Part shown: one piece after another, positions 17,097 to 35,204 of the stretch
How the letters are laid out: the number at the start of each line of letters is the position of its first letter
Position numbering within the stretch: position 1 is the first letter of the stretch
Assembly: GCF_913063105.1 (NCBI RefSeq)
Contig: NZ_CAJXYQ010000005.1
Coordinates: 248,001 to 312,000 of the forward strand
Origin: an uncultured Draconibacterium sp.
Lineage (GTDB): Bacteria; Bacteroidota; Bacteroidia; Bacteroidales; Prolixibacteraceae
Direction of reading: 5' to 3'
Length of the DNA: 64,000 nt
Notes under the pieces: generated by a model
What the model saw: the letters and a program-made list of their open reading frames with translations, nothing else
Told to the model about the DNA's origin: nothing
The model's database searches: none
Translations under genes and position numbers: made by a program

Positions 17097-17522
17097 TTTG
17101 GAAAATTTATATTAACTCATTTATATCAGTTACTTTTATCGCTTGTGAAAAACGACATATTATGCAAGCATAAACACTAGATTACATACTAGAATGAAAG
17201 AATTTTAATTGACTGCAAACCTGTGTTTTTTACAATGTATACTATTTATATACGCTTTACGAAGGAGTATTAACTAAATAAACACTAAATAATTTCTTAT
17301 TCTCGCCTTAAGGGGCAGATAATCAAATATTTCTGTTTCGAGCCGCTGTGTTACACCTGGTTCTGTATCGTTTGAAGGACTTATAAAAGATATAATGATT
17401 TTAAAAGATCAGAAGTGGAGCCTTTGTGAATCAGAGAAATTCTACATCCTAAAACATTTAATACATAATAGCGAGAAAATGTTACGAATTTATATATTTG
17501 CAAACTAAGTATAATTTATTAA
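17097..17522. promoter_or_regulatory. Divergent regulatory region between beta-helix genes and the ECF sigma gene
   Basis: This 426-base AT-rich gap separates divergent units. TATATTTG at 17493-17500 fits the Bacteroidetes -7 element TAnnTTTG and lies 22 bases before the sigma start. No good TTTG -33 element was found. On the other strand I found neither a clear -7 element nor the TGT-N16-GTA motif described for the ECF promoters. Confidence 0.4.
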
Positions 17523-18270: not shown

Positions 18271-18309
18271 TCTTAGTTGTAAATATTAAGTCTTGCGTAT
18301 TAATATTAG
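18271..18309 (+). promoter_or_regulatory. ECF promoter-like motif I between sigma and anti-sigma genes
   Basis: TCTTAGTTGTAAAT (18271-18284), then 11 bases, then CGTATTAATATTAG (18296-18309). It ends 57 bases before the anti-sigma ATG. The same two blocks at identical spacing recur at 26691-26729 ahead of the enzyme operon. Its core, TGT-N16-GTA (18278, 18297), is also found in motif II at the second sigma locus. It is read as the promoter recognised by the sigma factor at 17523; this is inference from conservation and position. Confidence 0.65.
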
Positions 18310-18365: not shown

Positions 18366-19361
18366 ATGAATAAAGAATTACTAATAAAATATCTCAATAA
18401 TCAATGTTCGCCTGAGGAATTTGAATTGGTGACTGCGTGGTTTAAAAACGAAGTTATTAATAAAGAAGGTAAAAAGTGGAGTTTTGAAAACTGGAAAGAA
18501 TTTAATCCGATCATAGAGAATAAGGATGATGAAAGATATAGTTTTTTACTTGATAAAATACACCATAAAATTAATCTCAACAAAACAGAAAAGAAAGAAG
18601 GATTAAGTATACATAAAATTCCTTATTGGTTGACAAGTGTTGCTGCTGTTTTGGTATTTGCTTTATTGTTTGGTAATATTTTCTTTTTTCATAAAGCCAA
18701 ACAATATGATGTGGCCGAGCAGTTACAAACAATATTAACCCCTCCGGGGGCAAAAACGAACATCACTTTACCCGATGGTTCATTAGTTTGGTTAAATTCT
18801 GGGTCTACACTTTCTTATCCTCTAAAGTTTAATAAGGACAGGTCTGTATCATTAATTGGCGAAGCGTATTTTGAGGTAGAAAAAGACGATATGCCTTTTA
18901 TTGTAAATACGAATTATGGGGATGTGGAAGTAAAGGGAACTTCATTTGATGTAAAAGCTTACATTGACGACGATGCGTTTGAAACTACTTTGGTTGAGGG
19001 GATTGTTGTTTTTAAAGAAAATGGTGCGGAAAATGGAGTTACCCTAAAACCCGGTGAACAAATTGCAAAAGATAGTAATGGTTATACCATAAAACAGGTA
19101 GAAACAAAATATTTTACTTGCTGGAAAGATGGTAAATTACTTATAAAAAATGAACCTTTCCCTTCTTTCATAAAGAAACTGGAGCGCTGGTATAATATTA
19201 AAATTGAATGCTCAGATCCGTGGCTGGAAGAAATGCGATACACCGGAACCATTGAAATGGAAAGTATAAGCGAGGTAATGGAACTAATTACAAAAGCTGC
19301 GCCTGTGGTTTATAACTATAACCCCGATACAAGAACTTATACAATAAAAGTAAAAAAATAA
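18366..19361 (+). CDS. FecR-family anti-sigma factor (first PUL)
   Basis: The 331-residue inner-membrane protein has an N-terminal cytoplasmic anti-sigma region (about 1-80, LIKYLNNQCSPEE). One transmembrane segment follows near 85-108 (LTSVAAVLVFALLFGNIFFF). The periplasmic FecR domain is about 118-225 (TPPGAKTNITLPDGSLVWLNSGSTLSYP; EAYFEVEKD; FDVKAY), and a C-terminal DUF4974/STN-binding domain is about 255-330. It relays ligand binding by the SusC receptor, through that protein's STN domain, to the sigma factor upstream. Length and layout are normal. Confidence 0.92.
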   Translation: MNKELLIKYLNNQCSPEEFELVTAWFKNEVINKEGKKWSFENWKEFNPIIENKDDERYSFLLDKIHHKINLNKTEKKEGLSIHKIPYWLTSVAAVLVFALLFGNIFFFHKAKQYDVAEQLQTILTPPGAKTNITLPDGSLVWLNSGSTLSYPLKFNKDRSVSLIGEAYFEVEKDDMPFIVNTNYGDVEVKGTSFDVKAYIDDDAFETTLVEGIVVFKENGAENGVTLKPGEQIAKDSNGYTIKQVETKYFTCWKDGKLLIKNEPFPSFIKKLERWYNIKIECSDPWLEEMRYTGTIEMESISEVMELITKAAPVVYNYNPDTRTYTIKVKK

Positions 19362-19509: not shown

Positions 19510-22500
19510 ATGGAAAAAAAACGAAGTATCCATGGATTAAGTCCGTGTGTGCAAAAAACGCTTAGAATTATGAGGCTAACGGTATTCTTAATGTTGATTT
19601 CCTTTTTTGGAGTAATAGCATCAGAAAGTTACTCTCAATCTACGAGATTGTCGTTAAAGGTTGATGGAATCAGCCTTGAGGGATTCCTGTTGAAAATTGA
19701 AGAACAAAGTGAATTCCGTTTCTTTTACACTGATAATATTGATGTTGAAAAAAGAGTTTCTGGTGAGTTTAGAAATAAAAAGATCACAGAAATTCTTGAC
19801 GATATTAAAGAAGAGGCTGATATAAAATATGAAGTTATGGGACGGCATATTATACTTTCTCCAGCCAATACCAATGACCTATTAAAAAGTATTCAGCAAG
19901 TTGTTTCCATTTCCGGAACCGTAACCGATGAAAGTGGAGAGCCTTTACCAGGTGTAACAGTGTTGATAAAAGGCACTACTAATGGTGCAATTACCGATAT
20001 TGATGGTAAGTATAAATTAGCTGATGTACCTGAGAAAAGTATCCTTCAATTTTCATTTATCGGAATGAAAACACAGGAAGTTGAGGTTGGCTCTCAAACT
20101 ACAATAGATCTTTCAATGATAACAGATGCTGTTGGCATTGAAGAAGTGGTAGCCATTGGCTATGGTACAATGAAAAAAGCAGATCTAACAGGTGCGGTTA
20201 CTACTGTCTCAGTTAGAGATGTAGAAGGACGTTCATTAACAAATTCGAGCCAAATTCTTCAAGGTAAAGTTGCAGGTGTAAATATCATTCAGAATTCAGG
20301 GAAACCTGGAGACGATGCAGCTACAATTCGTATTCGAGGTATCTCTTCAATTGATAATAATAATTCACCATTAGTAGTTATTGATGGAATTATTGGTTCT
20401 TTCGAAGATGTGAACCCAAATGACATTGAATCAATGTCTGTTTTAAAAGATGCATCTTCAGCTGCAATTTATGGTTCAAGAGCATCAGCAGGAGTTATAA
20501 TTATTACAACTAAAACTGCAAAACAAGGGTTGACCATTAAATATAATGGAACTTATTCTTTACAAAATGTAACCAGACTTCCTGAAGTTGCAGATTCTTG
20601 GGTTGTTGCTGAGTTAAGAAATGAGGCTCGCGCAGCAATTGGAAATGGAGCAGTTTTTACAGATGAAATTATTGAAAAATATAAATATGGAATAGATCCA
20701 AATTATCCTAATACGGATTGGTATGATACTTATTTTGATCCAGCGTTTATGCAGAATCATTATACTACTGTTAGTGCCGTTCATAAAAATTACAATTTTA
20801 CTAATTCGGTAGGTTATGTTGATCAAAATGGTGTGTTAATGGGAACAGTTAACAAGAAGCTTACATACCGTTCAAAAATTGATGCAAAATTTCTGGATGA
20901 TAAATTGCGTGTAAACTTAAATGTCTCAGGATATAAAACTGATACAGATGAGTTGGCTTCTTCATCATACTCAGTAATGACGGAAATTACAAGAATGCAG
21001 CCAACCAGAATTATTCAAAGTGGAGGACCAGATGGAACCGGTGATGGACTTTATACCAACGACGGAAGATATTTTGCTGTGCAAGATTTAGGTGGCGGTA
21101 TCAATAAGTTACAAAAATCTATCAATGCTAATGCATCCGCAGAATTTGAGCCGGTTAAAAACTTGAAAGCACGAATGCAATATGGTAGTTCTATTTGGAA
21201 TCAAGAGCGTGTAACATATTCTCCAGAATACTATGTGACTTATAGCTTCCTTCAAGAGTCTACTACCCTAAAGGAATCAGAATTAATAAAGCAGTGGTAT
21301 AAAAATCAAAACAACCAATTAACCACTACATTATCCTATAGTTATAATTTAAGCAAACATAATCTGTATGCAATTGCTGGTTATGAGTGGTCGGACTACT
21401 CTAGAAATTATGATAGAATTCAGGTGAAACATTTATCTGCGAATTCACCAATATTGGGATTTGGAGATCCTACTTCACATTTTTCTTCTAGTGAGGCAAG
21501 CGAAAACTCAGTAATCTCACAATTTGGTAGAATGAGATATTCATACGATAGTAAATACATGTTATTATTTACTATTCGTAGAGATGGTTCCTCTAGATTT
21601 GCAGATGGAAACAAATGGGGAGTATTCCCATCCGTATCTGGATATTGGCGTGTTACAAAGGAGAATTTTTTTGAATCAAATAATCTTGATCTAAAATTAA
21701 GAGGTTCTTGGGGTAGATTAGGAAACCAAGGAATCGGAACCAATTATGCCGCTTCGGATGTCATGAGTGGAACTGAATATTATTCTCTGGGAGGAACAAT
21801 TGTGCCTGGTCGCGGAACTAGCGTTCTTGCAAACCCGAACACTACATGGGAAACTACAGAGCAAATTGATATAGGATTCGATGCAGTAATTAAGAATAAT
21901 GCTAATGTCTCATTTTCTTATTTCCATAAGAACACATATGATATTTTGGCAAGGGTCACTATCCCAACTTCGCTTGGTGTTACAAATTCACCTTATCAGA
22001 ATATTGGTGATATGGTTAATGAAGGTGTTGAATTAGAAGTTGGATACTTTGGTCAATCTAAGTCAGGTGATTTTAGTTACACAATCAATGGTAACATAAG
22101 TTATCTTCGAAACGAAGTTACAAACCTTGGGATACTTGATTTTGTAAGTCATAGTGAAATGATCAGAAGTCAAGTAGGTCACCCTTTTGCTTCTTATTAT
22201 GGATATAAAACGGATGGAATCTTACAAATTGATGATTTTACATGGCAAGAGGATAGCAATCCAACAATTGCTCATGAGGATCGTATTTATACTTTAAAAG
22301 AAGATCGTGCTGATCCATCAGACATTATGTATCAAGCTGAACCTGGAGATTTAAATCTGGTAGATTTAAGCGGTGATGGTAAAATTACTCCTGAAGATAA
22401 AACGATTATCGGAGAATCAGTTCCCAAGATATTGTATGGAGCAAGTGTTAACCTGTCGTATAAAAACTTCGGTTTAAATATTATGGGGCAGGGAGTCGCA

Positions 22501-22908
22501 GGAGTCAAATCTTATATGTTCGGTTCACTTGTAACTCCTTTCTATAATGCAGGAGGTGCTGCGCTAACGAAAACTTCAGTTGAGAATCGTTGGACGTTAG
22601 AAAATCAATCAAATAAGTACACAAGACTATATGAAGATAAACAAAGAGATGCAATTCGCTCTGACTATAACTTGTTTAACAGTTCTTATTTCAGGGTGAA
22701 AAGTATTGAGTTATCTTATAACGTACCAAAGCATATTATCAATAAGTACGGAATTAAAAACATGAAAGTATTCTGTACAGGTGAAAATCTCTTACTCTTT
22801 ACGAACTTTCTTGAGGGTTTTGATCCCGAGAGAACTTATACTAGCATTTACCCAAGTTCGCATCCACAAATTGCTACATACAGCTTAGGTATAAATCTAA
22901 CTTTATAA
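19510..22908 (+). CDS. SusC/RagA TonB-dependent receptor with signalling (STN) domain
   Basis: The 1132-residue outer-membrane transporter has a signal peptide to about residue 45. An STN domain (about 50-115; LEGFLLKIEEQSEFRFFY) is the partner of the FecR anti-sigma factor. A carboxypeptidase-regulatory-like domain follows (about 130-205; ISGTVTDESGEPLPGVTVLI). The plug begins with IEEVVAIGYGTMKKADLTGAV and contains LVVIDGI and the hallmark VLKDASSAAIYGSRASAGVI. The barrel ends with YSLGINLTL. Together with the SusD lipoprotein 6 bases downstream it imports a glycan fragment using TonB energy. The STN domain makes it a sensor as well as a transporter. Confidence 0.97.
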   Translation: MEKKRSIHGLSPCVQKTLRIMRLTVFLMLISFFGVIASESYSQSTRLSLKVDGISLEGFLLKIEEQSEFRFFYTDNIDVEKRVSGEFRNKKITEILDDIKEEADIKYEVMGRHIILSPANTNDLLKSIQQVVSISGTVTDESGEPLPGVTVLIKGTTNGAITDIDGKYKLADVPEKSILQFSFIGMKTQEVEVGSQTTIDLSMITDAVGIEEVVAIGYGTMKKADLTGAVTTVSVRDVEGRSLTNSSQILQGKVAGVNIIQNSGKPGDDAATIRIRGISSIDNNNSPLVVIDGIIGSFEDVNPNDIESMSVLKDASSAAIYGSRASAGVIIITTKTAKQGLTIKYNGTYSLQNVTRLPEVADSWVVAELRNEARAAIGNGAVFTDEIIEKYKYGIDPNYPNTDWYDTYFDPAFMQNHYTTVSAVHKNYNFTNSVGYVDQNGVLMGTVNKKLTYRSKIDAKFLDDKLRVNLNVSGYKTDTDELASSSYSVMTEITRMQPTRIIQSGGPDGTGDGLYTNDGRYFAVQDLGGGINKLQKSINANASAEFEPVKNLKARMQYGSSIWNQERVTYSPEYYVTYSFLQESTTLKESELIKQWYKNQNNQLTTTLSYSYNLSKHNLYAIAGYEWSDYSRNYDRIQVKHLSANSPILGFGDPTSHFSSSEASENSVISQFGRMRYSYDSKYMLLFTIRRDGSSRFADGNKWGVFPSVSGYWRVTKENFFESNNLDLKLRGSWGRLGNQGIGTNYAASDVMSGTEYYSLGGTIVPGRGTSVLANPNTTWETTEQIDIGFDAVIKNNANVSFSYFHKNTYDILARVTIPTSLGVTNSPYQNIGDMVNEGVELEVGYFGQSKSGDFSYTINGNISYLRNEVTNLGILDFVSHSEMIRSQVGHPFASYYGYKTDGILQIDDFTWQEDSNPTIAHEDRIYTLKEDRADPSDIMYQAEPGDLNLVDLSGDGKITPEDKTIIGESVPKILYGASVNLSYKNFGLNIMGQGVAGVKSYMFGSLVTPFYNAGGAALTKTSVENRWTLENQSNKYTRLYEDKQRDAIRSDYNLFNSSYFRVKSIELSYNVPKHIINKYGIKNMKVFCTGENLLLFTNFLEGFDPERTYTSIYPSSHPQIATYSLGINLTL

Positions 22909-22914: not shown

Positions 22915-24531
22915 ATGGAAATGAAATTAAAAAAAATATATATCGTATTAATAATCTTCATGGTTGCTATAAGTTGTAATGAAGATGATTATTTGGATAA
23001 AAAACCAATCGATTTTCTATCACCTGATAGTTTCACAAGTGAAAAAGACGTTCGTGAAGCTGTAAATGGAATTTACAAAGCATTTATTTCTGATAAGGAA
23101 GAGCCAATAAAAACAGATTTTATTGTTGATAATGGATATTATGTAGGTTACAACGACATGTGGACTCGTACTTACAATAGTGAAAGTCCATTTATTGAGG
23201 CAAAGTGGTCACGTAACTATAAAATGATCCTACGAGCTAATACCGTTCTTCATTATATGGACAATGTTGAATTATCTGATGCAATCTACAATCAGCATAA
23301 AGGTGAAGCAAAATTTTTAAGAGCTTTAGCATATTTTGATTTATCTGAATTTTACGGAGATGTACCCTTAAGAACAGCTCCTGAAAGTTTGTCAGAAGCA
23401 GATAAAGCTGTAACAGCCAAAGGCGATATTGTCAACTTTGTTCTGGATGAATTAGAAGAGGCTGCAGAACTGTTGCCAGTAACATATGCAGTTACAGAAA
23501 GAGGAAGAGCTACTAAAGGTGCTGCTTTGGCAATTAAAGCAAGGGTATATTTATATAATGGATTATATGACAAAGCCGTAGAATATTGTCAAAAAGTAAA
23601 AGCTTTAGATCAATATTCTTTAATGGATGATTTTTATACCATGTTCCTTCCTGAAACTGAAGGAAGTAACACGGAATCAATTTTTGAGATGCAATTTGAA
23701 ACTGATGCACGGGCACAGGATTTATCAAATAATTGGTATTCTTATTTTGTACAATGGGGAGGTTTCCAGATTTTAGTAGGGCTTGAACAAGCTTTTTATA
23801 CTACAAACGGTTTAGCCCTCGACGATCCAAATAATGATATGTATGATACCACTATAAACACTGATATTTTTAATCCTGATTATATCATTGGTGGAGGATA
23901 CGATAATAGGTTTAGCAATCGTGATCCAAGATTATATGCTACTTTAATGGTACCATATTCAATAAGAGATTATAGAAGCGACGGAGAACCGGTTATTTTA
24001 TATCCTGATCATATTAAGAATGCAAACTTTACTGGTATCAAAGCAAAAAAATATGCCGATTACTCTGACAATAAAATCACTTTTATTTCAGGTGTAAATC
24101 CGGTGATTATTCGCTATGCTGATATCCTATTAATGGAAGCTGAAGCATTAATTGAATTGGGCGGATATGATGAATCATATGTTCGTTCTTTAATTGATGA
24201 GGTAAGGCAACGTCCTTCAGTAATGATGCCTAAGGTTGAAGATGCGGAAGGTACAGGTTTATCTCAGGAAGAATTAAGAGACATTGTACGTCATGAAAGA
24301 CGTGTAGAATTTGCATTAGAAGGACTTAGATATTTTGATGTAAAAAGGTGGGATGTCGGAGCTGAAGTGTTAACTGACGGTTTAGGTTATAGGCCAGATA
24401 AACTTAAAAATAACTCTGCGGAATATGAAATTTACGCTTACCAGCCACGTACTTTTGATCCGGTAAAAGGATACCTTTGGCCGATTCCAAAATCGGAAAC
24501 TGATTCAAACAAATCGATTCCAAGTAATTAA
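22915..24531 (+). CDS. SusD/RagB glycan-capture lipoprotein
   Basis: A 538-residue SusD-like lipoprotein. The lipobox Cys is in AISCNEDDYLD, followed by acidic residues usual for surface export. The TPR-like helices are visible (GEAKFLRALAYFDLSEFYGDVPL; KGAALAIKARVYLYNGLYDKAVEYC). The C-terminal SusD core includes VIIRYADILLMEAEALIELGG and ELRDIVRHERRVEFALEGLRYFDVKRW. It forms the lid over SusC and binds glycan at the cell surface. It is 6 bases downstream of susC, so both are co-transcribed. Confidence 0.96.
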   Translation: MEMKLKKIYIVLIIFMVAISCNEDDYLDKKPIDFLSPDSFTSEKDVREAVNGIYKAFISDKEEPIKTDFIVDNGYYVGYNDMWTRTYNSESPFIEAKWSRNYKMILRANTVLHYMDNVELSDAIYNQHKGEAKFLRALAYFDLSEFYGDVPLRTAPESLSEADKAVTAKGDIVNFVLDELEEAAELLPVTYAVTERGRATKGAALAIKARVYLYNGLYDKAVEYCQKVKALDQYSLMDDFYTMFLPETEGSNTESIFEMQFETDARAQDLSNNWYSYFVQWGGFQILVGLEQAFYTTNGLALDDPNNDMYDTTINTDIFNPDYIIGGGYDNRFSNRDPRLYATLMVPYSIRDYRSDGEPVILYPDHIKNANFTGIKAKKYADYSDNKITFISGVNPVIIRYADILLMEAEALIELGGYDESYVRSLIDEVRQRPSVMMPKVEDAEGTGLSQEELRDIVRHERRVEFALEGLRYFDVKRWDVGAEVLTDGLGYRPDKLKNNSAEYEIYAYQPRTFDPVKGYLWPIPKSETDSNKSIPSN

Positions 24532-24551: not shown

Positions 24552-25478
24552 ATGAAAGTTAAAAACATATTAAAATTTTCACTATTAATGGTTGTTTTTG
24601 CATTTTTTGTAGCAATAACCGCATGTGATAAAGAAGATGAAGCTCCTTTAGCTTCAGCAACGTTAACAAGTGAGGTTACAAACATTTTGCAGGGAGATAC
24701 TGCGGAACTTGTTGTTGATATTACAGGAGGGGTTCCTCCATACGGTTTTAGATATTCTGATGGAGTTGAAAGTTACTATGAATTGGGTATTGAGCAAACA
24801 CCTCATATAATTAAGGTGACTCCTGATTCAACCAGAACTTATACTGCAGAAGCCGTTGGTACATATTACCGAAATGTTGGAACGGCTTCAGGTTCTGCAA
24901 CAATTGAAGTAACACCTGTTCAATACGTGTTAGATCAAACTTTCACTGGTGTGAACTCAGGTTTCTTACATGGAACTAATGGATGGCAGGCAAAAAGTGA
25001 TGAAATACAGATTAAAACTGATGATGGAAGTTGGGACCGTAGGGGATTTTACGAATTTGATGCAAGCCAAATTACAACGGTTGAACAATATAACAAATAT
25101 ACTTTCAGCTTTTGGTTAGTGAAGAGTCACGGTCAAGGTGTTAATGCTGGATTGGGAGCTATGGAAGTAAAAGGTTACGTTGGTGAAATTGATAACTCTT
25201 GGACTTGGAACACGCAACCAGGTCTGGATGTCTTGATTGACGGTTATACACAGCAATTTACAGCTGTTTCACAGGATATGCAGATTGAGTTTAAGGGTGA
25301 TATTACGTCAATCGTACATGCAGCCTTGGCAAGCCCAAGTAAGAAATTTACATTAAGGGTGATAGAAAATGTAAATGGTGAAGGAAATGGAGGTTTCTAT
25401 TATATTGGAGGAACTTCATGGTGGAAGGCGGAGCAAAGACCAGCAGTTGGAGTTCTGTTGAGAAGACCAATAGACTAA
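24552..25478 (+). CDS. Surface lipoprotein, likely glycan-binding (SusE/F position)
   Basis: The 308-residue lipoprotein has its lipobox Cys in AITACDKEDE. Residues about 35-120 look like an Ig-like domain (LTSEVTNILQGDTAELVVDITGGVPPYGF is its start). Residues about 130-305 form a jelly-roll-like region (GFYEFDASQI...YTFSFWLV; GYVGEIDNSWTWNTQP) reminiscent of DNRLRE/CBM96-type modules. It is 20 bases after susD and last in the operon, the usual place for a SusE/F-type glycan-binding protein. The ligand is unknown and the family assignment is tentative. Confidence 0.6.
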   Translation: MKVKNILKFSLLMVVFAFFVAITACDKEDEAPLASATLTSEVTNILQGDTAELVVDITGGVPPYGFRYSDGVESYYELGIEQTPHIIKVTPDSTRTYTAEAVGTYYRNVGTASGSATIEVTPVQYVLDQTFTGVNSGFLHGTNGWQAKSDEIQIKTDDGSWDRRGFYEFDASQITTVEQYNKYTFSFWLVKSHGQGVNAGLGAMEVKGYVGEIDNSWTWNTQPGLDVLIDGYTQQFTAVSQDMQIEFKGDITSIVHAALASPSKKFTLRVIENVNGEGNGGFYYIGGTSWWKAEQRPAVGVLLRRPID

Positions 25479-25508: not shown

Positions 25509-25582
25509 ATCTCCCTGATAGGTAGTAAAATAATGGATAAGCAGTTCCATTATTCTGAAACTATCAGGGAGATCATTCTTTT
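25509..25582 (+). terminator. Two-tier hairpin ending the first Sus operon
   Basis: The outer arms ATCTCCCTGATAG (25509-25521) and CTATCAGGGAGAT (25561-25573) pair perfectly over 13 bp. The inner arms AATAATGGA (25529-25537) and TCCATTATT (25546-25554) pair over 9 bp about an 8-base loop. A short T-rich stretch (cattctttta) follows. It lies 30 bases after the last Sus gene, so it is a terminator or a 3'-end stabilising structure. Confidence 0.75.
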
Positions 25583-26336
25583 ATGTTCTAAATTATTTTC
25601 TTGATTTCAATACCAAACGTTATAGCTTTTTCGTGACCAACTATGGCAAATAGTTTTTTGAATCATTTTATTTATTGATACTTCAATAACCAAATTACTT
25701 CTTTAAGGAAGTTAATTCTGACAATGACGTCTTTCCTCAGGAATTAATAATTATAAGATACCTATCGACCTTAGCTGGATCATCTTATAAGGGATGTATT
25801 ACACTCTTTTAAGTCGGTTATTTGTGCGTTTATTTTCATTAAATCAATAAAAAACTGTTTTTTTAATTGATGCTTCTCTTGTTTCTATAAAGTTTTATTT
25901 ATATGTAATCAGAGTGGCTAATATTAAGAAGGTTGGCGTATCCGATTCTTTTCTCAATATTCATTGATATTTTCTCATATCTTCTCTTTTTTGAATTTCA
26001 TACTCTCTTATTTACCAAGAATTTTCTAGGTATGATGATACTGTTTTAAGAAAAGATTATTGAACTGACTATTACTTGTCGGTAATTGAATATCTTCAGA
26101 TAGTATCTTTTATGCCTGACAGGTAAGTAGATGAGAGGTTGTTGTTGCGATCTATAGATTTGTTCGAAATTAAAATCTAGCATTAAGATAATCCTGAAAA
26201 AATTGTAAAGATGAAGTTTACAAATCGATTAATAGTAGCTCATATTTCAAGTGTAAAAATCCGAAAAAGACTTGTTTTAGCAATTGAGGAATTTAGTTTT
26301 TATTGGGATTACTACATTACCATATGTTTCAATTTC

Positions 26337-26375
26337 CAATACGTGTAATATAGCTTTCAATTGTAGTATTAGTAA
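26337..26375 (+). promoter_or_regulatory. Copy of ECF promoter-like motif II
   Basis: AATACGTGT, then 12 bases, then the 18-base string AATTGTAGTATTAGTAAA, ending at 26375. Both blocks are identical in sequence and spacing to 61217-61255, between the second sigma and anti-sigma genes. The TGT-N16-GTA core is at 26344 and 26363. It is inferred to be a target of the second ECF sigma factor, 697 bases upstream of the enzyme operon. Confidence 0.6.
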
Positions 26376-26690
26376 AGGTGAGTAACTCGCTTTTGAAATG
26401 AGCTTATCGTTGGAATATATCGTAAGAGACTAATCAAAGATTCTATGATTTTCGAAGCGAATGGCAAGTTCCCAATATCGGGATTGAAATCTTAAAGATA
26501 ATATTCTATCCTTTAAGAAGAAGGGTAAATAGATATGATTAATAGCTGAAATTGTGAAGAAATGAATAAAGCTTTTTTAGTTGTTCTTCAAGGTTATTTC
26601 TAATAAATAGAATTTTTAATAGATGTAAAATGGTGATAGATAGATTGATATGGCTTGAAATCTATTGAGTATAAAAAAAATGACTTTTTC

Positions 26691-26729
26691 TCTTAGTTGT
26701 AAATCTCTCCATTTACGTAATAATAATAG
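26691..26729 (+). promoter_or_regulatory. Copy of ECF promoter-like motif I
   Basis: TCTTAGTTGTAAAT (26691-26704), 11 bases, then CGTAATAATAATAG (26716-26729). The first block is identical to 18271-18284 and the second differs at 2 of 14 positions; spacing is the same. The TGT-N16-GTA core is at 26698 and 26717. It is inferred to be the promoter through which the first sigma factor drives the genes from 27073. Confidence 0.65.
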
Positions 26730-27072
26730 ATGTTATTGCAGAAGGAAGATTCAAATAGTAGTAGAGTTTAGTTAAGGCAATTTAATTTTTCGTATGATTA
26801 AGAAGTTGCTTAAAGGTGTTTTAGCATTGCCAATGCATTGTTCAGTTTTATAAAGGCAAAGAAGAATTAAGAACAGAAAATAATTTTGAGTTTATAAGGA
26901 TTGTATAAGTTACGGTATTGGCAAATGCTAAAGATCCTAAAAAGGGTTACTCTTAATTAAGAGAAGACCGGGCGAGTTGAGTCATCAAAAACTAAGCTTC
27001 TACTTATCTGGTGTCAAAAAGAAATATCAAATTAAAAAGTTTAGAAAAATAAATCAATAAAATCAAGAAACT

Positions 27073-28407
27073 ATGAACAGCTCAAGAAGAGAATTTCTAG
27101 GTAAGACGGCATTATTTGCTTCAGGAGCCATTGCTTCATCTGCGTTAGGCATGCCTGTTTCTGCAAAGGGTCGAAATACGTCGGCAAATGAGAAATTAGT
27201 AGCAGGAGTAATAGGTTGCAAAGGAATGGGCTTTGCAAATTTAGAATCGTTTTTAAAGCAACCCAATACGGAATGTGGCGCACTGTGTGATGTAGACGAG
27301 AATGTTTTAAACGAACGTATTTCGGATGTTGAGAAGATCCAGGGTAAAAAGCCCAAAGGCTTTAAAGACTTCCGTAAGATGCTTGAGTATAAAGGACTAG
27401 ATGTGATCATTATAGGAACTCCAGACCATTGGCATGCCCTTCAATTTATTTATGCCTCACAACAAGGATATGATATTTACTGTGAGAAGCCATTGGGGAA
27501 TACGGTTTACGAATGCGATTTAATGGAAAAAGCAGCGAACCGTTATGGAAACGTAGTACAGGTAGGTCAGTGGCACCGAAGCACTAAATCATGGCAAGAT
27601 GCTGTTAAATATGTTCATTCAGGTAAATTAGGAAACATCAGGGAAGTTCGTTCATGGACTTATTTGAGTTGGCTAAAACCTGCCATAAAGAAAGCCAATT
27701 GCGCAGTTCCAAGCGGAGTAGATTATGATATGTGGTTAGGCCCTGCACCGAAAAGGGATTTTAATCCAAACAGGTTTCACTTCAATTTCAGGTGGTACTG
27801 GGATTACGCAGGAGGGTTAATGACCGACTGGGGGGTACACATTATTGATTATGCTCTGTACGGAATGCAAAAGTATGCACCTAAATCGGTAATGGCAATT
27901 GGGGGCAAGCATGCATACCCCGACAGTGCAGGTGAGACTCCTGATACATTAAAGGTTCTTTACGAATTTGATGATTTTTCATTGTCATGGTCTCATGCAA
28001 TTGGCATTGACAATGGAGATTATGGGAGACAAAATGGGGTTGGCTTTGTAGGCAATAACGGAACCTTGGTTGTAGGTCGCCGAACAGGCTGGGAAGTTAT
28101 ACCGGAAAAAGATGATAAAGGGAATAACAAAATTGATAGAGAATACCATTTGACCTCTTTTAATTTAGGTTTGGATAACCATGTTTCGAACTTTATAGAT
28201 TGTGTAAAAACAAGAGAGACACCTAATTGTCCGATCGATGTAGCGGCAGGAGTTGCAAGGCTTAGCCATTTAGGCAATATTGCTTATAGGACAGGTAAAC
28301 GATTAGACTGGGACACTGAGAACCATGTGTTTGTAAATGATCAGGAAGCAAACGCATTACTTAAACCAACGTATAGGAAGCCCTGGTCCCTCCCTGAAAA
28401 CCCATAG
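27073..28407 (+). CDS. Tat-exported Gfo/Idh/MocA-family oxidoreductase
   Basis: The 444-residue protein has a twin-arginine signal (SSRREFLGK, then a hydrophobic stretch to about residue 30). The Rossmann domain starts LVAGVIGCKGMG (about 42-53), and the family Glu-Lys-Pro motif is at 138-140 (YCEKPLGN). The GGLMTDWGVHIIDYALYG segment carries the substrate-side His. Family members oxidise sugars, often at C3, or act as glycosidases through a transient 3-keto intermediate (GH109-type). Tat export fits a protein that folds around NAD(P) before leaving the cytoplasm. As first gene of the run it would feed the DUF1080 proteins. The substrate is unknown. Confidence 0.88.
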   Translation: MNSSRREFLGKTALFASGAIASSALGMPVSAKGRNTSANEKLVAGVIGCKGMGFANLESFLKQPNTECGALCDVDENVLNERISDVEKIQGKKPKGFKDFRKMLEYKGLDVIIIGTPDHWHALQFIYASQQGYDIYCEKPLGNTVYECDLMEKAANRYGNVVQVGQWHRSTKSWQDAVKYVHSGKLGNIREVRSWTYLSWLKPAIKKANCAVPSGVDYDMWLGPAPKRDFNPNRFHFNFRWYWDYAGGLMTDWGVHIIDYALYGMQKYAPKSVMAIGGKHAYPDSAGETPDTLKVLYEFDDFSLSWSHAIGIDNGDYGRQNGVGFVGNNGTLVVGRRTGWEVIPEKDDKGNNKIDREYHLTSFNLGLDNHVSNFIDCVKTRETPNCPIDVAAGVARLSHLGNIAYRTGKRLDWDTENHVFVNDQEANALLKPTYRKPWSLPENP

Positions 28408-28416
28408 TGGGTTTTT
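28397..28416 (+). terminator. Hairpin with the stop codon in its loop, followed by T5
   Basis: AAAACCCA (28397-28404) and TGGGTTTT (28408-28415) form an 8-bp perfect stem. The 3-base loop is exactly the TAG stop codon of the oxidoreductase gene. T continues to 28416. It has the form of a small intrinsic terminator, and a ribosome ending at TAG would cover it. It is probably a partial terminator or attenuator after the first gene of the operon. Confidence 0.5.
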
Positions 28417-28457
28417 AGGTGAGGAATTTTTTTATTGACCTAAAACAACATAAAGCT

Positions 28458-29207
28458 ATGGAACGGATATTCTTTATCCTGATATTGGTATTTATCACAA
28501 TTTATATACCTGCCCAATGTCAAGAGGGAGTAAAGCCTCAAGAAATGACAGAAGAATGGGGGAAGCCTATTCCAGTTGTAAAACCAGGAAAAACTTTAAT
28601 GAGTGCTCCTTCTGATGCTATTGTTTTATTTGATGGCACAGACCTAAATAAGGAATGGACAGATATGGAAGGGAGTGAGGTGAAATGGATAGCTACCAAT
28701 GGTACCGTTACCATTCCAAAAGATGGTGGGGACATAAAAACCAAACGAGTTTTTGAAGATTTTCAACTACATGTTGAGTGGAAATCACCAAAAGAAGTGA
28801 TTGATAGTGGAATGAGAAGGGGAAACAGTGGGATTTTTCTGCAAGGAGTTTATGAGTTACAAATACTCGATAGCTATGATAACCCGACCTATGTAAATGG
28901 TCAGGCAGGAAGTATTTATAAACAACACGCACCTCTTGTTAACGTATGCAAAGAGCCTGGGGAGTGGCAGGTTTTCGATATTATTTATACTGCTCCCCGT
29001 TTTAAGGGGCGTAATTACTTTACGCCTCCTTATGTGACTGTTTTACAGAATGGTGTTTTAATCCTAAACAATGTAGCCATAAAAGGTCCCACACTTTATA
29101 TTGGAATTCCAGAATTTAAAGTAGAACCACACGGAGCGGGCCCCATAGTGTTACAAGATCATTGGTTCCCGGTAAGTTTCCGGAATATTTGGATAAGGGA
29201 GTTATAA
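28458..29207 (+). CDS. DUF1080 (3-keto-disaccharide hydrolase) protein A
   Basis: The ATG at 28458 is preferred over the in-frame GTG at 28419 because it places the signal peptide (ERIFFILILVFITIYIPAQ) at the N-terminus; 249 residues result. A single DUF1080 jelly-roll follows: AIVLFDGTDLNKEWTDMEG, FQLHVEWKSP, GNSGIFLQGVYELQILDS, QAGSIYKQ, and closing VSFRNIWIREL. Pfam names this family 3-keto-disaccharide hydrolase. It follows the Gfo/Idh/MocA gene, the expected partner that makes the 3-keto substrate. It belongs to the shorter DUF1080 type. Periplasmic location is inferred. Confidence 0.85.
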   Translation: MERIFFILILVFITIYIPAQCQEGVKPQEMTEEWGKPIPVVKPGKTLMSAPSDAIVLFDGTDLNKEWTDMEGSEVKWIATNGTVTIPKDGGDIKTKRVFEDFQLHVEWKSPKEVIDSGMRRGNSGIFLQGVYELQILDSYDNPTYVNGQAGSIYKQHAPLVNVCKEPGEWQVFDIIYTAPRFKGRNYFTPPYVTVLQNGVLILNNVAIKGPTLYIGIPEFKVEPHGAGPIVLQDHWFPVSFRNIWIREL

Positions 29208-29211
29208 TCAG

Positions 29212-30699
29212 ATGATACAAAATATGGGAATTTCAATTGTGAAAAAAATTTTCACCCTCAATTTTATTGCCTTGGGATTATTTGCGAGTGTGGAACATTC
29301 GAACGATCCCACAAGGCAAGTGGATGCTACCATTGATTTTACCCAGACCCTCCAGGAATGGGATGGCTTTGGTGTAAACTATGTAGAATTGGCACAATCA
29401 ACGGATTACGAAAATGATCCTCAAGAGTATGGCGGTTTTAGCCTGTTAAGTGAAGAAGAGAGGGATGAGGTAATTGAGTTGATTTTTGGAGAGGACGGGC
29501 TTAAACCTTCAATTGTGAAAATGTTTTACGATCCTTTCCATCAAGAAGTACCTGGGGGGCCATTCGATCACGAAACAACCACACGGTGGATGCGGTATTT
29601 TGTGCATAAAGGGATAGCTAAAACCAAAGAAAGAGGTGGAGATGAAATAAGTATTATTTCTACCTTATATGGCCCTCCGGCGTGGGCAACTAAACAGAAA
29701 ATATTGCGTGGTCGCGACCTAGACCCAGAGCAATTTGAAAACTTGGCAAAATACATGATTGCATGGGGTAAGTTTTTAGTGGAAAAAGAAAAACTGCCTT
29801 TGAAATACCTAAGCCTTCATAACGAAGGTGATTGTGTAAACGGTTGGCCGCTTGACGGGAGTCATGGCAGTATTGGGAAAGGCAACCATCATGATTATAA
29901 TGCTTTCTGGAGACCAACGCAAGTGGCGCACTTCCTTGAATTTATGCCGCCAATGATGAAGGCTGCTGGTCTTGATGTGGGGCTTACACCTGGCGAGTGT
30001 GCAACCTGGAATAAATTTGAGAATCATTATTACCATTGGGCTATCCATGATAACGATGCTGCGATGGAAAATATCTCACTGATTACAAGCCACAGCTTCG
30101 ATTGGCCCAAACCACTTACCACAAAACCAATTGATTTGCTTCGGTTAAAAAGACCCGACCTTCATGCCTGGACTACTTCTATGACCTGGGGAAATATGCA
30201 TACCCAAAAGAATTACGATTTTGTTTTGCAAATGATTCTGAACATATATGAAGCTAAGGTTAATGCCATCATACCCTGGGCTTGTATTCAAACAGCTACT
30301 TGGGAAACAGGAGACCCAAATCCGCACACAGCGTTTTTTGTAAGCGAAAAAGGAGATTATGAGATTAGGCCACAATATTATTTTTATAAGCAACTAACAA
30401 GAGCTGGACAGAAAGGCATGAAAGTAGCTAAGGTCAGCTCAAACAATAGCCGGGTTAAATTAGCGGCATTTTCATCTAATAATACAGCACATCCCGATGC
30501 TTTCCTTGTAATGAATATGGAATCTGAACCTATCGCCGTGAATTTAAAGATTACAGGAAACGCAAGTTCGTATGAAGCGTTTCGAACTTCACACGATGAG
30601 CAATATGCTCCTTTAAGGGTTCAGGAAATACAGGATAATAAACTAAGCTATTCAGCTCCTGCGGGATCGATAACTACCTTTTTTGCCAAAAACAAATAA
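29212..30699 (+). CDS. GH30-like clan A glycosidase with a substituted nucleophile position
   Basis: A 495-residue exported protein. The sequence LQEWDGFGVNYVE (about 46-58) is the beta-1 signature of GH30-like barrels. The acid/base is expected at Asn-Glu in YLSLHNEGD (about residue 200-206). The beta-7 strand, where GH30 enzymes have Trp-x-Thr-Glu, reads LHAWTTSMTWGN (about 315-325), so Thr or Ser stands where the nucleophile Glu is expected. A C-terminal beta-sandwich (about 410-495, ending SAPAGSITTFFAK) is typical of GH30. It may be an inactive binding protein, use another residue, or belong to a related family. Confidence 0.6.
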   Translation: MIQNMGISIVKKIFTLNFIALGLFASVEHSNDPTRQVDATIDFTQTLQEWDGFGVNYVELAQSTDYENDPQEYGGFSLLSEEERDEVIELIFGEDGLKPSIVKMFYDPFHQEVPGGPFDHETTTRWMRYFVHKGIAKTKERGGDEISIISTLYGPPAWATKQKILRGRDLDPEQFENLAKYMIAWGKFLVEKEKLPLKYLSLHNEGDCVNGWPLDGSHGSIGKGNHHDYNAFWRPTQVAHFLEFMPPMMKAAGLDVGLTPGECATWNKFENHYYHWAIHDNDAAMENISLITSHSFDWPKPLTTKPIDLLRLKRPDLHAWTTSMTWGNMHTQKNYDFVLQMILNIYEAKVNAIIPWACIQTATWETGDPNPHTAFFVSEKGDYEIRPQYYFYKQLTRAGQKGMKVAKVSSNNSRVKLAAFSSNNTAHPDAFLVMNMESEPIAVNLKITGNASSYEAFRTSHDEQYAPLRVQEIQDNKLSYSAPAGSITTFFAKNK

Positions 30700-30704
30700 G
30701 AAAT

Positions 30705-32549
30705 ATGCGAACATTGATAAAAATACAATATTTCATTATTTCAATTACACTAACATTGCTAGCATCATGTGGCTTAAGTAAACAAGAACATGATGTCGAA
30801 ATTCATGGAGAACTGAAACAGTGGCATAAGGTTACTTTATTGATTCAAGGACCCGAAACATCGGAATGGGCAGAAAACAACCCTTTTTTAAATTATCGGC
30901 TTGATGTAACATTTTCAAAAGGAGATAAAAAATATGTTGCACCTGGCTATTTTGCTGCCGATGGGAATGCTGGAGAAACTTCTGCAAAAAAAGGAAATGT
31001 ATGGAAAGTACATTTCCGCCCCGATGAACCAGGAATATGGGATTACTCAATTTCCTTTATTTCCGGAGATGAGGTTGCGGTATCGGATAAACCCATAGGA
31101 GAACAAACATTAATTTCTAACTTGAAAGGTTCTTTCGAAGTTGATAAAACCAATAAAACTGGTAAAGATTTCAGAGCAAATGGACGTATTGTGTCTAATG
31201 GGACGAGATATTTTAAATTTTCGGGGACCAATAAAATATGGATAAAAAATGGTGCCGACAGCCCTGAGAACTTTTTGGCATTTACAGAGTTTGACCAAAC
31301 CTACAGAAAAGGAGTTAACAAAAGAATCCGAAAGGGCGAAGCAAATCCTAAAGCTCAAATTCATCAATATGAGCCACACTTGGATGATTGGGCAGTAAGT
31401 GATCCAACCTGGCAAGAAGAAAAGGGAAAAGGTATTATAGGTGCGATTAATTATCTCGCTTCAGCAGGTGTAAATTCTGTTTATATGCTCACACTGAATA
31501 TTCAGGGAGATGGTAACGACGTGTGGCCATATTCAGGCTATAACGAGCGTTACCGTTTTGATTGCAGTAAACTGGATCAGTGGGCTATTGTGTTCGACCA
31601 CATGGAGAGCCTTGGCATAATGAATCATTTTGTGCTTCAGGAAACAGAAAATGAATGTTTGCTTGATGGTGGTTTTACTAATGTTCAACGTAGAGTCTAT
31701 CTCCGTGAATTAATTGCTCGTTTTGGCCATAATTTAGGCGTAACCTGGAATTTGGGTGAAGAAAATGGTCCTTCAAAAAATTTGCCAATAGGGCAAACTG
31801 AACAACAAATAAGAGATATGGCTTCGTATATAAAACGTATCAATCCATATCCCAGTTACATCAGTCTTCATACCCATCACACCAATGCCGGACAGGATAA
31901 ATTCTTATTGCCTTTGCTTGGATTTCAAGACCTGGATGGTCCATCCTTGCAGGTTCACAAAGCTGTGGACGTTCATGAAAGGGTTAAGAAATGGATTGAC
32001 GTTTCTAATGTTACCGATAAAAAATGGATGGTTTGTTTAGACGAAATCGGACCTGCTGAAAATGGAGTTATGCCCGATAGTCATGATTTTAATCATGACA
32101 CAGTGAGACATCATTGTTTGTGGGGAGCATTAATGGCTGGTGCAGCCGGAGCCGAATGGTATTTTGGCTACCGCTATCCGCATAATGATCTGGGGATGGA
32201 AGATTTCAGAAGCCGTAAAAATTGGTGGAAACAAACAAAAATTGCTTCCGATTTTTTTGAAACATTACCTGTTCAGGATATGATTAATCGAAATGACCTT
32301 GTTCAAAATAAAAGAGCCTATTGCTTTACAAATGAAGGTGATATATATGTGGTGTATTTACCTGTAGGGAATGAATCAAGCAAGATAAAAATAAATTCAA
32401 ATAAAGAATATTCAATAAAATGGCTCAATCCAAGAGAAGGCGAAGATTTTAATTATGGTACCATAAAAAAAATAAAAGGAAAAGGTTGGGTAAGCATTGG
32501 TAAACCAAATTCCGATTTAGAAAGAGATTGGGTTGCCATAATTCAATAA
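30705..32549 (+). CDS. DUF5060 plus TIM-barrel glycoside hydrolase lipoprotein
   Basis: The 614-residue lipoprotein has its lipobox Cys in LLASCGLSK. Residues about 30-150 are a DUF5060 beta domain (LIQGPETSEWAENNPFLNYR...; FRPDEPGIWDYSISF). The barrel that follows contains WNLGEENGP (about 347-355) and MVCLDEIGPAENG (about 441-453). These Glu residues sit where clan A enzymes have acid/base and nucleophile. DUF5060/DUF4038-type proteins include several uncharacterised glycosidases; GH140 (apiosidase) is the nearest named relative I can suggest, weakly. It lies 5 bases after the GH30-like gene. Confidence 0.65.
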   Translation: MRTLIKIQYFIISITLTLLASCGLSKQEHDVEIHGELKQWHKVTLLIQGPETSEWAENNPFLNYRLDVTFSKGDKKYVAPGYFAADGNAGETSAKKGNVWKVHFRPDEPGIWDYSISFISGDEVAVSDKPIGEQTLISNLKGSFEVDKTNKTGKDFRANGRIVSNGTRYFKFSGTNKIWIKNGADSPENFLAFTEFDQTYRKGVNKRIRKGEANPKAQIHQYEPHLDDWAVSDPTWQEEKGKGIIGAINYLASAGVNSVYMLTLNIQGDGNDVWPYSGYNERYRFDCSKLDQWAIVFDHMESLGIMNHFVLQETENECLLDGGFTNVQRRVYLRELIARFGHNLGVTWNLGEENGPSKNLPIGQTEQQIRDMASYIKRINPYPSYISLHTHHTNAGQDKFLLPLLGFQDLDGPSLQVHKAVDVHERVKKWIDVSNVTDKKWMVCLDEIGPAENGVMPDSHDFNHDTVRHHCLWGALMAGAAGAEWYFGYRYPHNDLGMEDFRSRKNWWKQTKIASDFFETLPVQDMINRNDLVQNKRAYCFTNEGDIYVVYLPVGNESSKIKINSNKEYSIKWLNPREGEDFNYGTIKKIKGKGWVSIGKPNSDLERDWVAIIQ

Positions 32550-32652
32550 AGATATGATAAAACAAATGAAAGATAGAGATAATATAAATTCTACAAACCC
32601 GGCTCATGGTGTAAAATCAAAAGCAGCCGAATATTCAATTCAACTTTTCAAA

Positions 32653-35136
32653 ATGAAAAAACACTTTTTAAAATTAGTGCTGTTGTTAATGGTTTTGAGT
32701 GTCATTAGCAATGCTCAACAAGTAGGAAATAAATATGGCACAGTAACCGAAAAAACACCATCAATTCCACAATACTTTTCGTGGTTAAGCCATATGAATG
32801 AGGGGATGGAAGAGGCACAGATTATGTCTCAACTCGAATTTTTTAAATGGTTGCACGATGAGTACGGAATGAACCTTGAGATATATGCATTGGATGCCGG
32901 AATGATTGATACCTATAAAAAATATGGTACTATGGATTCACCGGAATTCAAAAAGAAATTCCCGAATGGATGGGATGGCTTTGCCGAATTAGCCGACTCT
33001 TTCTCTTGTAAGTTAGGTCTTTGGGGAGGACCTGACGGATTCGGAAATACCGAAGAAGAGGAAAATGCGAGGATTGAATTAATGTCAGGACTTTGCCGCG
33101 ATTATGGCTTGCAGTTATTTAAATTCGATGCTGTTTGCGGACAATTGCGTGACGAAAAACAGGCATCTTTTGCAAAAATGCTAACCGAATGCAGGAAGTA
33201 TGTCCCGAATTTGATTGCGTTAAACCACCGACTAAACCTGGGGATTGCCAAGCCACATGTAACCACATCGTTGTGGGAACACAAGGAAATGTATGTGGAT
33301 GTGCAAATCACAAACAATGTGACAGGAACTCACAACCGGGTGGGTGCTTTATCGAGGGGGCTGCCTCCCGGATTAACCCGCTTAATTGAAGACCATGGAT
33401 GCTGCATTTCTTCGTGTTTGGATTATTGGGAAGATGAATTAATTATCCAGGCATTTAACCGCTCACTTATTTTGGCTCCCGAAATTTATGGAAATCCCTG
33501 GTTGCTACGCGATGATGAATATGCAAAATTGGGAAGGATTTATAACCTCCATTACCGTAATCGTGAGATATTGGTAGACGGGATAGTGCTACCATCTGAA
33601 AAATATGGAGTTAATGCTGTTTCGAGAGGTGATGGTTCAACCCGGTTTATAACCCTGAGAAACCTTTCGTGGAACCCTGAAACTATTACAGTAGCACTTG
33701 ATAATGAAATTGGGTTAACCGGGAAGGGTAATATTGAAGTGAGAAGATATCATCCTTCAGAAAAAATTATTGGTGAATTTAAGTATGGAGAGCAATTTAA
33801 GGTTGAAGTAGAACCATTTAGGTCTTGTTTATTAATGGTGTCCACAAAACCAAGTAACGAAATAGGTATCAAAGGCTGCAATTATGAAGTTGTAAGGGAT
33901 ACAAAGGATAAACCTGTACTCATAAAGCTTTTAGGAATGCCTGGAAGTAACGCTTCGATATCCCTCGATTCGGGTAACCGCGAATTTTCAAAGGCTTATT
34001 TGGATGGAAAAAGTGCAGATAAAATTTTGGATGATAACCTTAAAATATCGTTTTCAGGCAAAGCCTACAAAAATAAATGGCACCGCAAACTTGGAGACCT
34101 CGAAGTAATTGATGTGCCCGATGATGCGAAGCAACTATACGAAGCAACATGTTTTACTGCAAGCAATAACATAGTTGAAGCACAATCTTTGAAACGTTCG
34201 GGAGAAACCAATATTCCGCAAGTAAAAAAAGCACGGGATACATTTTTCGAAAACGAATATTTTATACGAAGAGGCCTTTGGGATAAATTTATGTTTGATG
34301 GTGATTTAAATACCTTCTTTGGTGTTTATCGATATTCCAGCGATCAGGAAAAAGACAAACGTATTGATGGAGGAGCTTTGCGCCTTGACCTGGGTAAGAT
34401 TGAATCAGTCGATAAAATTGTTATGTCTTCTTTATATCCGGTGGACCGTGAAAATTTGCCACCAGATCATTTAACAGCTGAAGTTTCAACTGATTTAAAA
34501 TCATGGAAAGAAATCACTTTGAAAAGGGCTGAGAAAAGAGGCAAACAAATAGATGTTTCTTATTTCATGCAAGACGGAAGCTACGAATTATTTGATACTG
34601 ATGTTTATGATTGGACTTTTGATAGCAAGGAGGAATTAGATATTCGATATATAAAAATCAAAGATGCACCCGACCGTATTGCAGAATTTAAAATACAGGA
34701 TAATAATCAACAACTAAGTAGTTCAATATGGCAAGCAACACATTTGTTTGCTCCATACGATAGGGTTGTGCCAATAAAGGCGTGGGAAACGAATGTGAAA
34801 ATTGACAAGGATGCACCTGAAGGTAGTTATTTATGTGTTGCTTTTGAAGGAACGCATGGAGTTAACAAAGCCTTTTCAGCATTGCGAATGGATGGCAAAC
34901 CTATAGGTTCACCGTTAAGAGCTCCTAGTTTCCCTTTTATTGTGCGAGGAATGGGACCAGAAGAAGTTGATAAAAACAACACCTATTATTTTCCTATAAG
35001 CGATGAAATGAAAGGCAAGAAGGTTGACGTGGTTGGTTTACTGCTTAAAGGCGGCGAAACAGATGTGAAACCTCATGTTTGGACCACTTGCTACCCAACG
35101 CCTTATGAAATCAGGGAGCTGCGGCTCGAAGAATAA
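32653..35136 (+). CDS. Large exported TIM-barrel protein with clan-D-like and discoidin-like regions
   Basis: The frame opens at 32554, but the Met at 32653 starts a clean signal peptide (KKHFLKLVLLLMVLSVISNAQ), giving 827 residues. The first half looks like a barrel: YFSWLSHMNEGMEEAQIM, YGMNLEIYALDAGMID, and LQLFKFDAVCGQL near residue 155, where K-x-D recalls the nucleophile strand of GH27/GH36 enzymes. A beta-sandwich follows (TRFITLRNLSWNPETITV). A C-terminal region (about 580-700) resembles discoidin/F5-8C sugar-binding domains (RLDLGKIESVDKIVM). An alpha-galactosidase-like activity is a guess; the family is not certain. Confidence 0.5.
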   Translation: MKKHFLKLVLLLMVLSVISNAQQVGNKYGTVTEKTPSIPQYFSWLSHMNEGMEEAQIMSQLEFFKWLHDEYGMNLEIYALDAGMIDTYKKYGTMDSPEFKKKFPNGWDGFAELADSFSCKLGLWGGPDGFGNTEEEENARIELMSGLCRDYGLQLFKFDAVCGQLRDEKQASFAKMLTECRKYVPNLIALNHRLNLGIAKPHVTTSLWEHKEMYVDVQITNNVTGTHNRVGALSRGLPPGLTRLIEDHGCCISSCLDYWEDELIIQAFNRSLILAPEIYGNPWLLRDDEYAKLGRIYNLHYRNREILVDGIVLPSEKYGVNAVSRGDGSTRFITLRNLSWNPETITVALDNEIGLTGKGNIEVRRYHPSEKIIGEFKYGEQFKVEVEPFRSCLLMVSTKPSNEIGIKGCNYEVVRDTKDKPVLIKLLGMPGSNASISLDSGNREFSKAYLDGKSADKILDDNLKISFSGKAYKNKWHRKLGDLEVIDVPDDAKQLYEATCFTASNNIVEAQSLKRSGETNIPQVKKARDTFFENEYFIRRGLWDKFMFDGDLNTFFGVYRYSSDQEKDKRIDGGALRLDLGKIESVDKIVMSSLYPVDRENLPPDHLTAEVSTDLKSWKEITLKRAEKRGKQIDVSYFMQDGSYELFDTDVYDWTFDSKEELDIRYIKIKDAPDRIAEFKIQDNNQQLSSSIWQATHLFAPYDRVVPIKAWETNVKIDKDAPEGSYLCVAFEGTHGVNKAFSALRMDGKPIGSPLRAPSFPFIVRGMGPEEVDKNNTYYFPISDEMKGKKVDVVGLLLKGGETDVKPHVWTTCYPTPYEIRELRLEE

Positions 35137-35204
35137 AAGGAGTGAGGGTAATCTATCATATACGAAAATGAATATTACAATTGAATTGTATAAAACAAAA
35201 TCAA

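Follow-up and report, generated by a model that had tools for sequence, protein, structure and literature searches.

The window analysed here, a 64,000-nucleotide stretch of the genome of an uncultured Draconibacterium sp. (Prolixibacteraceae), contains two sigma loci with a long run of enzyme genes between them. Each locus has an ECF sigma factor gene, here called sigma-I and sigma-II, followed by its anti-sigma gene and by genes for a SusC/SusD pair. The two sigma factors are 31% identical over 174 aligned positions. The genes are as follows.

17523..18110, + strand: sigma-I, ECF sigma factor, TIGR02985 (Bacteroidetes sigma-70 subfamily; 143.3 bits, cut-off 126.4)
18366..19361, + strand: anti-sigma-I, FecR and FecR_C (both over cut-off)
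19510..22908, + strand: SusC-I, TonB-dependent transporter (TIGR04056)
22915..24531, + strand: SusD-I
24552..25478, + strand: 308-aa protein with a weak CBM96-like match under cut-off
27073..60335, + strand: enzyme run, 23 ORFs on one strand, none more than 175 nt from the next
60618..61202, + strand: sigma-II, ECF sigma factor, TIGR02985 (157.7 bits, cut-off 126.4)
61319..62260, + strand: anti-sigma-II, FecR and FecR_C (both over cut-off)
62382..64000, + strand: SusC-II, cut by the end of the window; stretch L236 continues with SusD-II and more genes

SusC-II carries an STN domain just above the Pfam cut-off (28.7 against 28.4 bits). In SusC-I the domain falls just under the same 28.4 bits, at 24.9, with an E value of 1.8e-5 and in the matching place in the protein. 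The presence at both loci of a SusC/SusD pair with an STN-like domain, downstream of the sigma/anti-sigma pair, suggests that these are glycan-sensing receptors, as the initial annotation had called them.

The enzyme run encodes a Gfo/Idh oxidoreductase, four 3-keto-disaccharide hydrolase proteins, GH29 and GH97 members, a GH42-like and a weakly GH71-like protein, SASA and AXE1 esterases, ThuA, RraA and CstA proteins, MFS/transporter proteins and others. The four 3-keto-disaccharide hydrolases, taken with the Gfo/Idh, ThuA, RraA and CstA proteins, suggest that a 3-keto-glycoside route may operate. Elsewhere in the window, divergent minus-strand genes at 10540-17096 include two GH141-like beta-helix proteins, and no strict site for either of the motifs described below stands before them. 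The segment 9828-10068, between listed ORFs, is 74% identical to G095, a genome labelled as the same species (C1:4553575), and matches no tRNA, tmRNA or Rfam family.

Upstream of the enzyme run lies a leader (25583-27072) with a G+C content of 28%. Its initial description as gene-free, followed by 23 genes, proved accurate: the ORF list has no ORF of 100 aa contained in it, a minus-strand ORF at 27063-27410 overlapping only its last bases; ATG ORFs on its plus strand reach at most 45 aa; and 23 same-strand ORFs stand downstream. Two motifs, called I and II, each occur once in this leader and once in the gap between one sigma gene and its anti-sigma gene, and all four sites are oriented like the genes downstream of them. 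The sites, and an inverted repeat that precedes the leader, are listed here.

18273..18309, + strand: motif I, gap copy, predicted sigma-I promoter of anti-sigma-I/SusC/SusD, between sigma-I and anti-sigma-I; seen in orthologous gaps
25509..25573, + strand: inverted repeat, 13-bp perfect, with a nested stem; follows the SusCD-I operon and may be a terminator or a stem at a 3' end (fold z -7.5)
26340..26375, + strand: motif II, leader copy, candidate promoter from which sigma-II would read the enzyme run, whose first gene begins ~0.7 kb downstream
26693..26729, + strand: motif I, leader copy, candidate promoter from which sigma-I would read the enzyme run, whose first gene begins ~0.34 kb downstream
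61219..61254, + strand: motif II, gap copy, predicted sigma-II promoter of anti-sigma-II/SusC/SusD, between sigma-II and anti-sigma-II; seen in orthologous gaps

The stem at 25509-25573 is very stable and has no clear T run. Because so strong a stem follows SusCD-I, the enzymes probably need a start of their own. Further into the leader, a long imperfect stem at 26821-26931 (TTAGCATTGCCAATGC / TTGGCAAATGCTAA) would be part of the 5' leader of the predicted enzyme transcript, and the fold of 26724-27090 has a z of -2.9. Regulatory RNA in the leader was represented by a single Rfam match with an E value of 0.63, below its cut-off, and at the gathering threshold there was no Rfam match in the whole window.

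Scans for other kinds of promoter gave little. A sigma-70 type scan was uninformative, with 70 promoters found against 67.1 expected. A box lies just before each sigma gene that fits the TAnnTTTG element reported for Flavobacterium in the available text of PMC9723704, although the window has no excess of such boxes.

17493..17500, + strand: TATATTTG box just before sigma-I; fits the TAnnTTTG -7 element, with no TTG at 17-23 nt
60603..60610, + strand: TATATTTG box just before sigma-II; fits TAnnTTTG, likewise lacking a TTG at 17-23 nt

As candidates for a vegetative start in the leader, the TAnnTTTG boxes at 26155 and 26881 were set aside, neither having a TTG at 17-23 nt. This test decides nothing, because the boxes before the sigma genes fail it too and the box is rarer in the window than in shuffles (55 against 88.7). 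A further TATATTTG box at 3533-3540 precedes ORF 3622-4179, which was the last-ranked match of a two-sequence sigma profile and was not among the Pfam sigma region 4 matches.

Motif I has the form TTAGTTGTAAAT-N12-GTAWTAATAWTAG, and motif II the form TACGTGT-N14-TTGTAGTATTAGTAA. The initial annotation had placed copies of motif I at 26691-26729 and of motif II at 26337-26375, with partners between the first and the second sigma/anti-sigma genes, respectively, and had reported that the spacing between the blocks was exact. All of this was borne out in place and orientation. For motif I, leader and gap copies are identical at 29 of 39 positions, with 14/14 and 12/14 in the two blocks and 3/11 in the spacer. 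For motif II they share 30 of 39 positions in the register of the initial annotation (the best 39-mer in the gap reaches 31), with 9/10 and 15/15 in the blocks and 6/14 in the spacer. The blocks are thus alike and keep their spacing, and the spacers have diverged. Flanks of 60 bases are identical at 26 and 30 positions upstream and at 20 and 22 downstream, against a chance level that we estimate from base composition at about 16-18. Most of the similarity therefore lies in the blocks, and the upstream flanks show a slight excess. We also considered a recent duplication of promoter pieces, which the differing spacers disfavour, although the upstream flanks do resemble each other a little more than chance would give.

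In 400 dinucleotide shuffles of the leader, no 39-mer matched either gap as well as the best one of the real leader does, and the highest identity in the reversed leader or in any of eight other intergenic stretches was 26. By the criterion set in the initial annotation, many unrelated copies in the genome would have counted against activation by both sigma factors. In a scan of the organism's own assembly (4.93 Mb in 41 contigs, 91% complete) that allowed up to 3 mismatches, each motif had exactly two sites, gap and leader, and the reversed patterns had none. These scan patterns were derived from the motif pairs themselves; the independent test comes from matrices trained on other genomes, described below. 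A generic ECF promoter common to all sigma loci was rejected, since the genome scans give no further site; indeed, six other sigma regions of the same genome that we inspected lack the blocks of both motifs. One of these six regions, L014, has a TGT-N19-GTA match 270 nt after a sigma gene, which belongs to neither motif.

We then looked for the tie between each motif and its sigma factor in 61 genomes, our own and 60 relatives, which were searched for both sigma proteins. A sigma-II relative of at least 52% identity is present in 12 genomes, our own included, and in two of these (G035 and G022) the relative has an internal stop codon. Exact TACGTGT-N14-TTGTA lies downstream of the sigma-II relative in all 12; its distance from the sigma gene is about 370 nt in G022 and about 520 nt in G016. 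The same exact pattern occurs 38 times in the 61 genomes against 75 in the reversed control; 23 of these matches fall in the 12 sigma-II genomes (control 16) and 15 in the other 49 (control 59). For motif I, the relaxed pattern TAGTY-N17-CGTAHTANWAW has 17 matches in the 61 genomes, namely eight sigma/anti-sigma gaps, the leader and eight others, and its reversed control has 55. Because such patterns are not above background over whole genomes, only their placement in the gaps is telling.

The placement of motif II was followed further in a scan of named genomes, which gave 38 sigma-II loci. Five were dropped, four for being distant (23-31% identity) and L232 as a 53-residue piece at a contig end, leaving 33, eight of which appear to come from genomes also within the set of 12. 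Motif II, at up to one mismatch, lies within 600 nt after the sigma match in 25 of the 33 (16 exact, nine with one mismatch) and is exact at 1023 nt in L200; it is absent after the sigma match in the remaining seven, of which two (L218 and L230) are cut by contig ends. A second exact TACGTGT-N14-TTGTA, on the plus strand, was seen in L215, 7021 nt before the end of the sigma match.

Eight sigma-II loci were fetched more widely, and two of them, in G006 and G008, have extra sites of the sigma-II type; in the other six, the gap copy stands alone at up to one mismatch. In both genomes one extra site lies on the opposite strand, ~390 nt before a RhaT gene that is followed by a GH2 gene. A GH106 gene also follows in G006; G008 was tested for RhaT and GH2 only. 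A further site in each genome falls within the 3' end of one gene and precedes the following gene, URO-D-like in G006, by 83 nt.

L178 13545-13570: extra sigma-II-type site, G006/G008
L179 14180-14205: extra sigma-II-type site, G006/G008
L180 13056-13081: extra sigma-II-type site, G006/G008
L181 18391-18416: extra sigma-II-type site, G006/G008

As predicted sites, these are a precedent for a sigma-II-type motif heading enzyme operons elsewhere.

For sigma-I, all seven relatives at 69-73% identity match TAGTY-N17-CGTAHTANWAW in the gap, a pattern that was written with these seven gaps and both of our own sites in view. G095, which was unused in deriving it and whose sigma-I gene is 72% identical in DNA, also has the pattern in its sigma-I-type gap. 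In more distant sigma-I relatives, the gap blocks are, by eye, related but different. The relatives' gaps, at sigma-I and sigma-II loci alike, back the assignment of each motif to its own sigma. Around the seven sigma-I orthologues (~17-20 kb each, mostly downstream; 36 kb in G003), motif I occurs in the gap alone when up to one mismatch is allowed. Sigma-I relatives thus do not, as a rule, place a second such site before enzyme genes. The one further motif-I site in 40 kb of G095 has one mismatch and lies on the opposite strand. A third strict motif-I match in our genome, at C14:101970, lies on the strand opposite both neighbouring ORFs and is identical in G095; we took it as chance.

Some sigma-I relatives also have a hairpin between the predicted start and the anti-sigma gene (L042-L058 and L260), with compensatory changes in five of nine pairs. 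The covariation was scored on 11 segments picked for a visible stem, comprising 10 of 18 sigma-I relatives (L042-L059) and G095, with eight left out. Coming from a selected set, this putative anti-sigma leader hairpin is a lead; the same hairpin is not evident in the window's own gap.

To weigh the leader sites independently of our own genome, we used matrices trained on seven sigma-I and 26 sigma-II gap sites from other genomes. In the 64-kb window, both matrices ranked their own gap site first and the leader site second. Scores for motif I were 20.0 in the gap, 10.2 in the leader and 4.1 for the next site, from a matrix that over-fits its seven training sites (these score 44-52, against 20 for our gap); for motif II they were 24.7, 20.2 and 4.7. 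Shuffled leaders equalled the observed score in 7 of 1000 cases for motif I and in none of 1000 for motif II. Across other stretches of the same genome (L013-L040, ~126 kb), the motif I matrix found one site, in L015, that exceeds the leader's 10.2 with 11.7, and the best motif II scores, 11.2 (L025) and 8.5 (L014), stay far under the leader's 20.2. The L015 site, with its core start at 484 on the minus strand, is without strict TAGT and CGTA blocks. Every site scores negative under the other motif's matrix. Since the cross-scores are negative and the sigma factors are only 31% identical, we read the motifs as two different codes. As a candidate site, leader motif II is secure on independent grounds; leader motif I is the weaker case and rests more on its match to our own gap. 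Taken together, the comparisons point to a leader that combines promoter-like motifs of two kinds, one linked to sigma-I and one, more firmly, to sigma-II.

Comparing this leader between related genomes, as had been proposed initially, yielded nothing, as the locus was found in no relative searched. The sole probe for an orthologous enzyme operon at family scale was the gene for a 1145-aa enzyme (51520-54957); a search of 139 further genomes of the family, G095 among them, found no match for it at E 1e-100. Relatives of the run's first gene (27073-28407), up to 63% identical, occur in 37 of the 60 related genomes. From the missing 1145-aa match and the 72% identity of the G095 sigma-I gene, the composite locus looks accessory, which places the double leader beyond a check by orthology; the double arrangement, with both motifs in one leader, was seen in no relative.

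We consider it probable that this is a composite polysaccharide utilization locus, in which a single enzyme operon is shared by two ECF sigma circuits, each coupled to a transporter. A FecR-type anti-sigma of its own would hold each sigma factor until the matching SusC/SusD pair engages and imports its glycan, whereupon the STN domain would relay the signal and the sigma factor be freed. The freed sigma factor would start transcription at its own gap promoter, as feedback on anti-sigma, SusC and SusD, and also at its own leader promoter, to express the shared enzymes. The leader would then act as an OR gate, the 23 enzyme genes being transcribed from a sigma-II start near 26.37 kb and from a sigma-I start near 26.73 kb, with predicted 5' leaders of ~700 nt and ~340 nt, respectively. 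Under this model the motifs would be promoters used exclusively by their own sigma factors, both leader copies would fire so that both sigma factors activate the enzyme operon, the 23 genes would form one transcript and the signals would be glycans.

If two loci were joined here, it might also be that only one leader site works, one promoter driving the enzymes today and the other being a relic. This is unlikely in our judgement, even if several observations lean its way: the locus is kept in no relative (1145-aa probe, 139 family genomes), the independent matrix scores leader motif I lower than its gap copy (10.2 and 20.0, respectively, with the L015 site at 11.7) and motif II lies ~700 nt before the first gene. 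A relic, however, would lose blocks and spacer alike, whereas both copies keep their blocks and exact spacing next to a diverged spacer.

Another reading takes the leader sites as bound by a different regulator or as read by a single sigma factor of relaxed specificity; in Flavobacterium a single CGT-box motif may, according to the available text, serve several ECF sigma factors (PMC9723704). We regard this as improbable here, because each motif sits elsewhere after relatives of one sigma factor and is negative with the other matrix, and because the genome scan finds neither motif at the other sigma loci of the genome. Least probable of all is chance resemblance in AT-rich DNA, which we give very little credence. 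The leader is long and its 28% G+C raises the number of chance matches, as the 7 of 1000 shuffles that reach the motif-I score illustrate, but none of 400 shuffles matched either pair, none of 1000 matched motif II with the independent matrix, and the motif pairs are unique in 4.93 Mb. On these comparisons chance appears strongly disfavoured for motif II, and less so for motif I. The preferred reading remains that of two sigma circuits sharing the enzyme operon.

To our knowledge, SusC/SusD transporter signalling has no part in the sigma/anti-sigma control of Clostridium thermocellum. The cellulosome control of that organism, as the available text presents it, is alike in that several polysaccharide-sensing sigma/anti-sigma pairs govern degradation genes, and unlike in that the organism is Gram-positive and its six systems are specific for distinct regulons (PMC10766802). 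Much closer in their parts are the SusC/SusD-coupled ECF loci of Bacteroides, which share the sigma subfamily, the FecR-type anti-sigma, the STN-like SusC, SusD and adjoining enzyme genes, and in which control of one locus by one sigma factor with SusC signalling is established, as far as the accessible parts of these reports go (PMC3878776, PMC3243724, PMC11501099). In PUL24 of B. thetaiotaomicron, the sigma factor BT1877 was responsible for the raised expression of the BT1871 enzyme gene in an anti-sigma mutant; BT4338, a global regulator, is required as well, and the 5' end mapped there falls within the anti-sigma gene, 291 nt ahead of SusC (PMC11501099, available text). That 5' end is not between sigma and anti-sigma, unlike the gap promoters predicted here. 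The Bacteroides systems, as described in the same sources, have one sigma factor per locus, whereas here two sigma motifs, with blocks defined across species, precede one enzyme run.

Two further systems resemble the leader in part. SigW-1 of B. thetaiotaomicron acts on part of PUL59, an ECF sigma factor on enzyme genes away from its own locus, and PUL59 likewise combines several independent regulations in one locus; unlike here, a single distant sigma factor is involved, its motif was not significant there, and the available text describes no paired sigma-specific promoters (PMC12596196). The overlapping ECF regulons of B. subtilis and the CGT-box of Flavobacterium, again judged from the available text, are alike in that more than one ECF sigma factor may act on the same genes, and the CGT-box has CGT in its -10 block as motif I does; the difference is that one promoter type serves several sigma factors there, and two separate motifs are found here (PMC9723704). 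In a literature search that covered titles and abstract openings of the best-ranked matches, with subscription papers outside its scope, we found no report of a locus of this kind in which a single operon is preceded by promoters for two ECF sigma factors.

A 2011 study called it unclear how far regulators cross-talk from one locus to another (PMC3243724, available text), and a 2013 reconstruction of B. thetaiotaomicron regulons, in its accessible part, found ECF-promoter prediction 'challenging' and in need of mapped starts (PMC3878776). Two ECF promoter codes were obtained here from comparison alone, and the leader offers a direct test case for two sensors sharing one enzyme set. With somewhat less confidence than we place in the composite locus as such, we lean towards the view that this leader is a natural two-input OR gate: two ECF sigma factors coupled to different SusCD pairs, whose promoter codes would be separate and not cross, would each drive the same 23-gene operon, so that import of either glycan would induce the enzymes for both, and the codes of such sigma factors could be read from the sigma/anti-sigma gaps of relatives, which would make ECF regulons predictable without transcript data.
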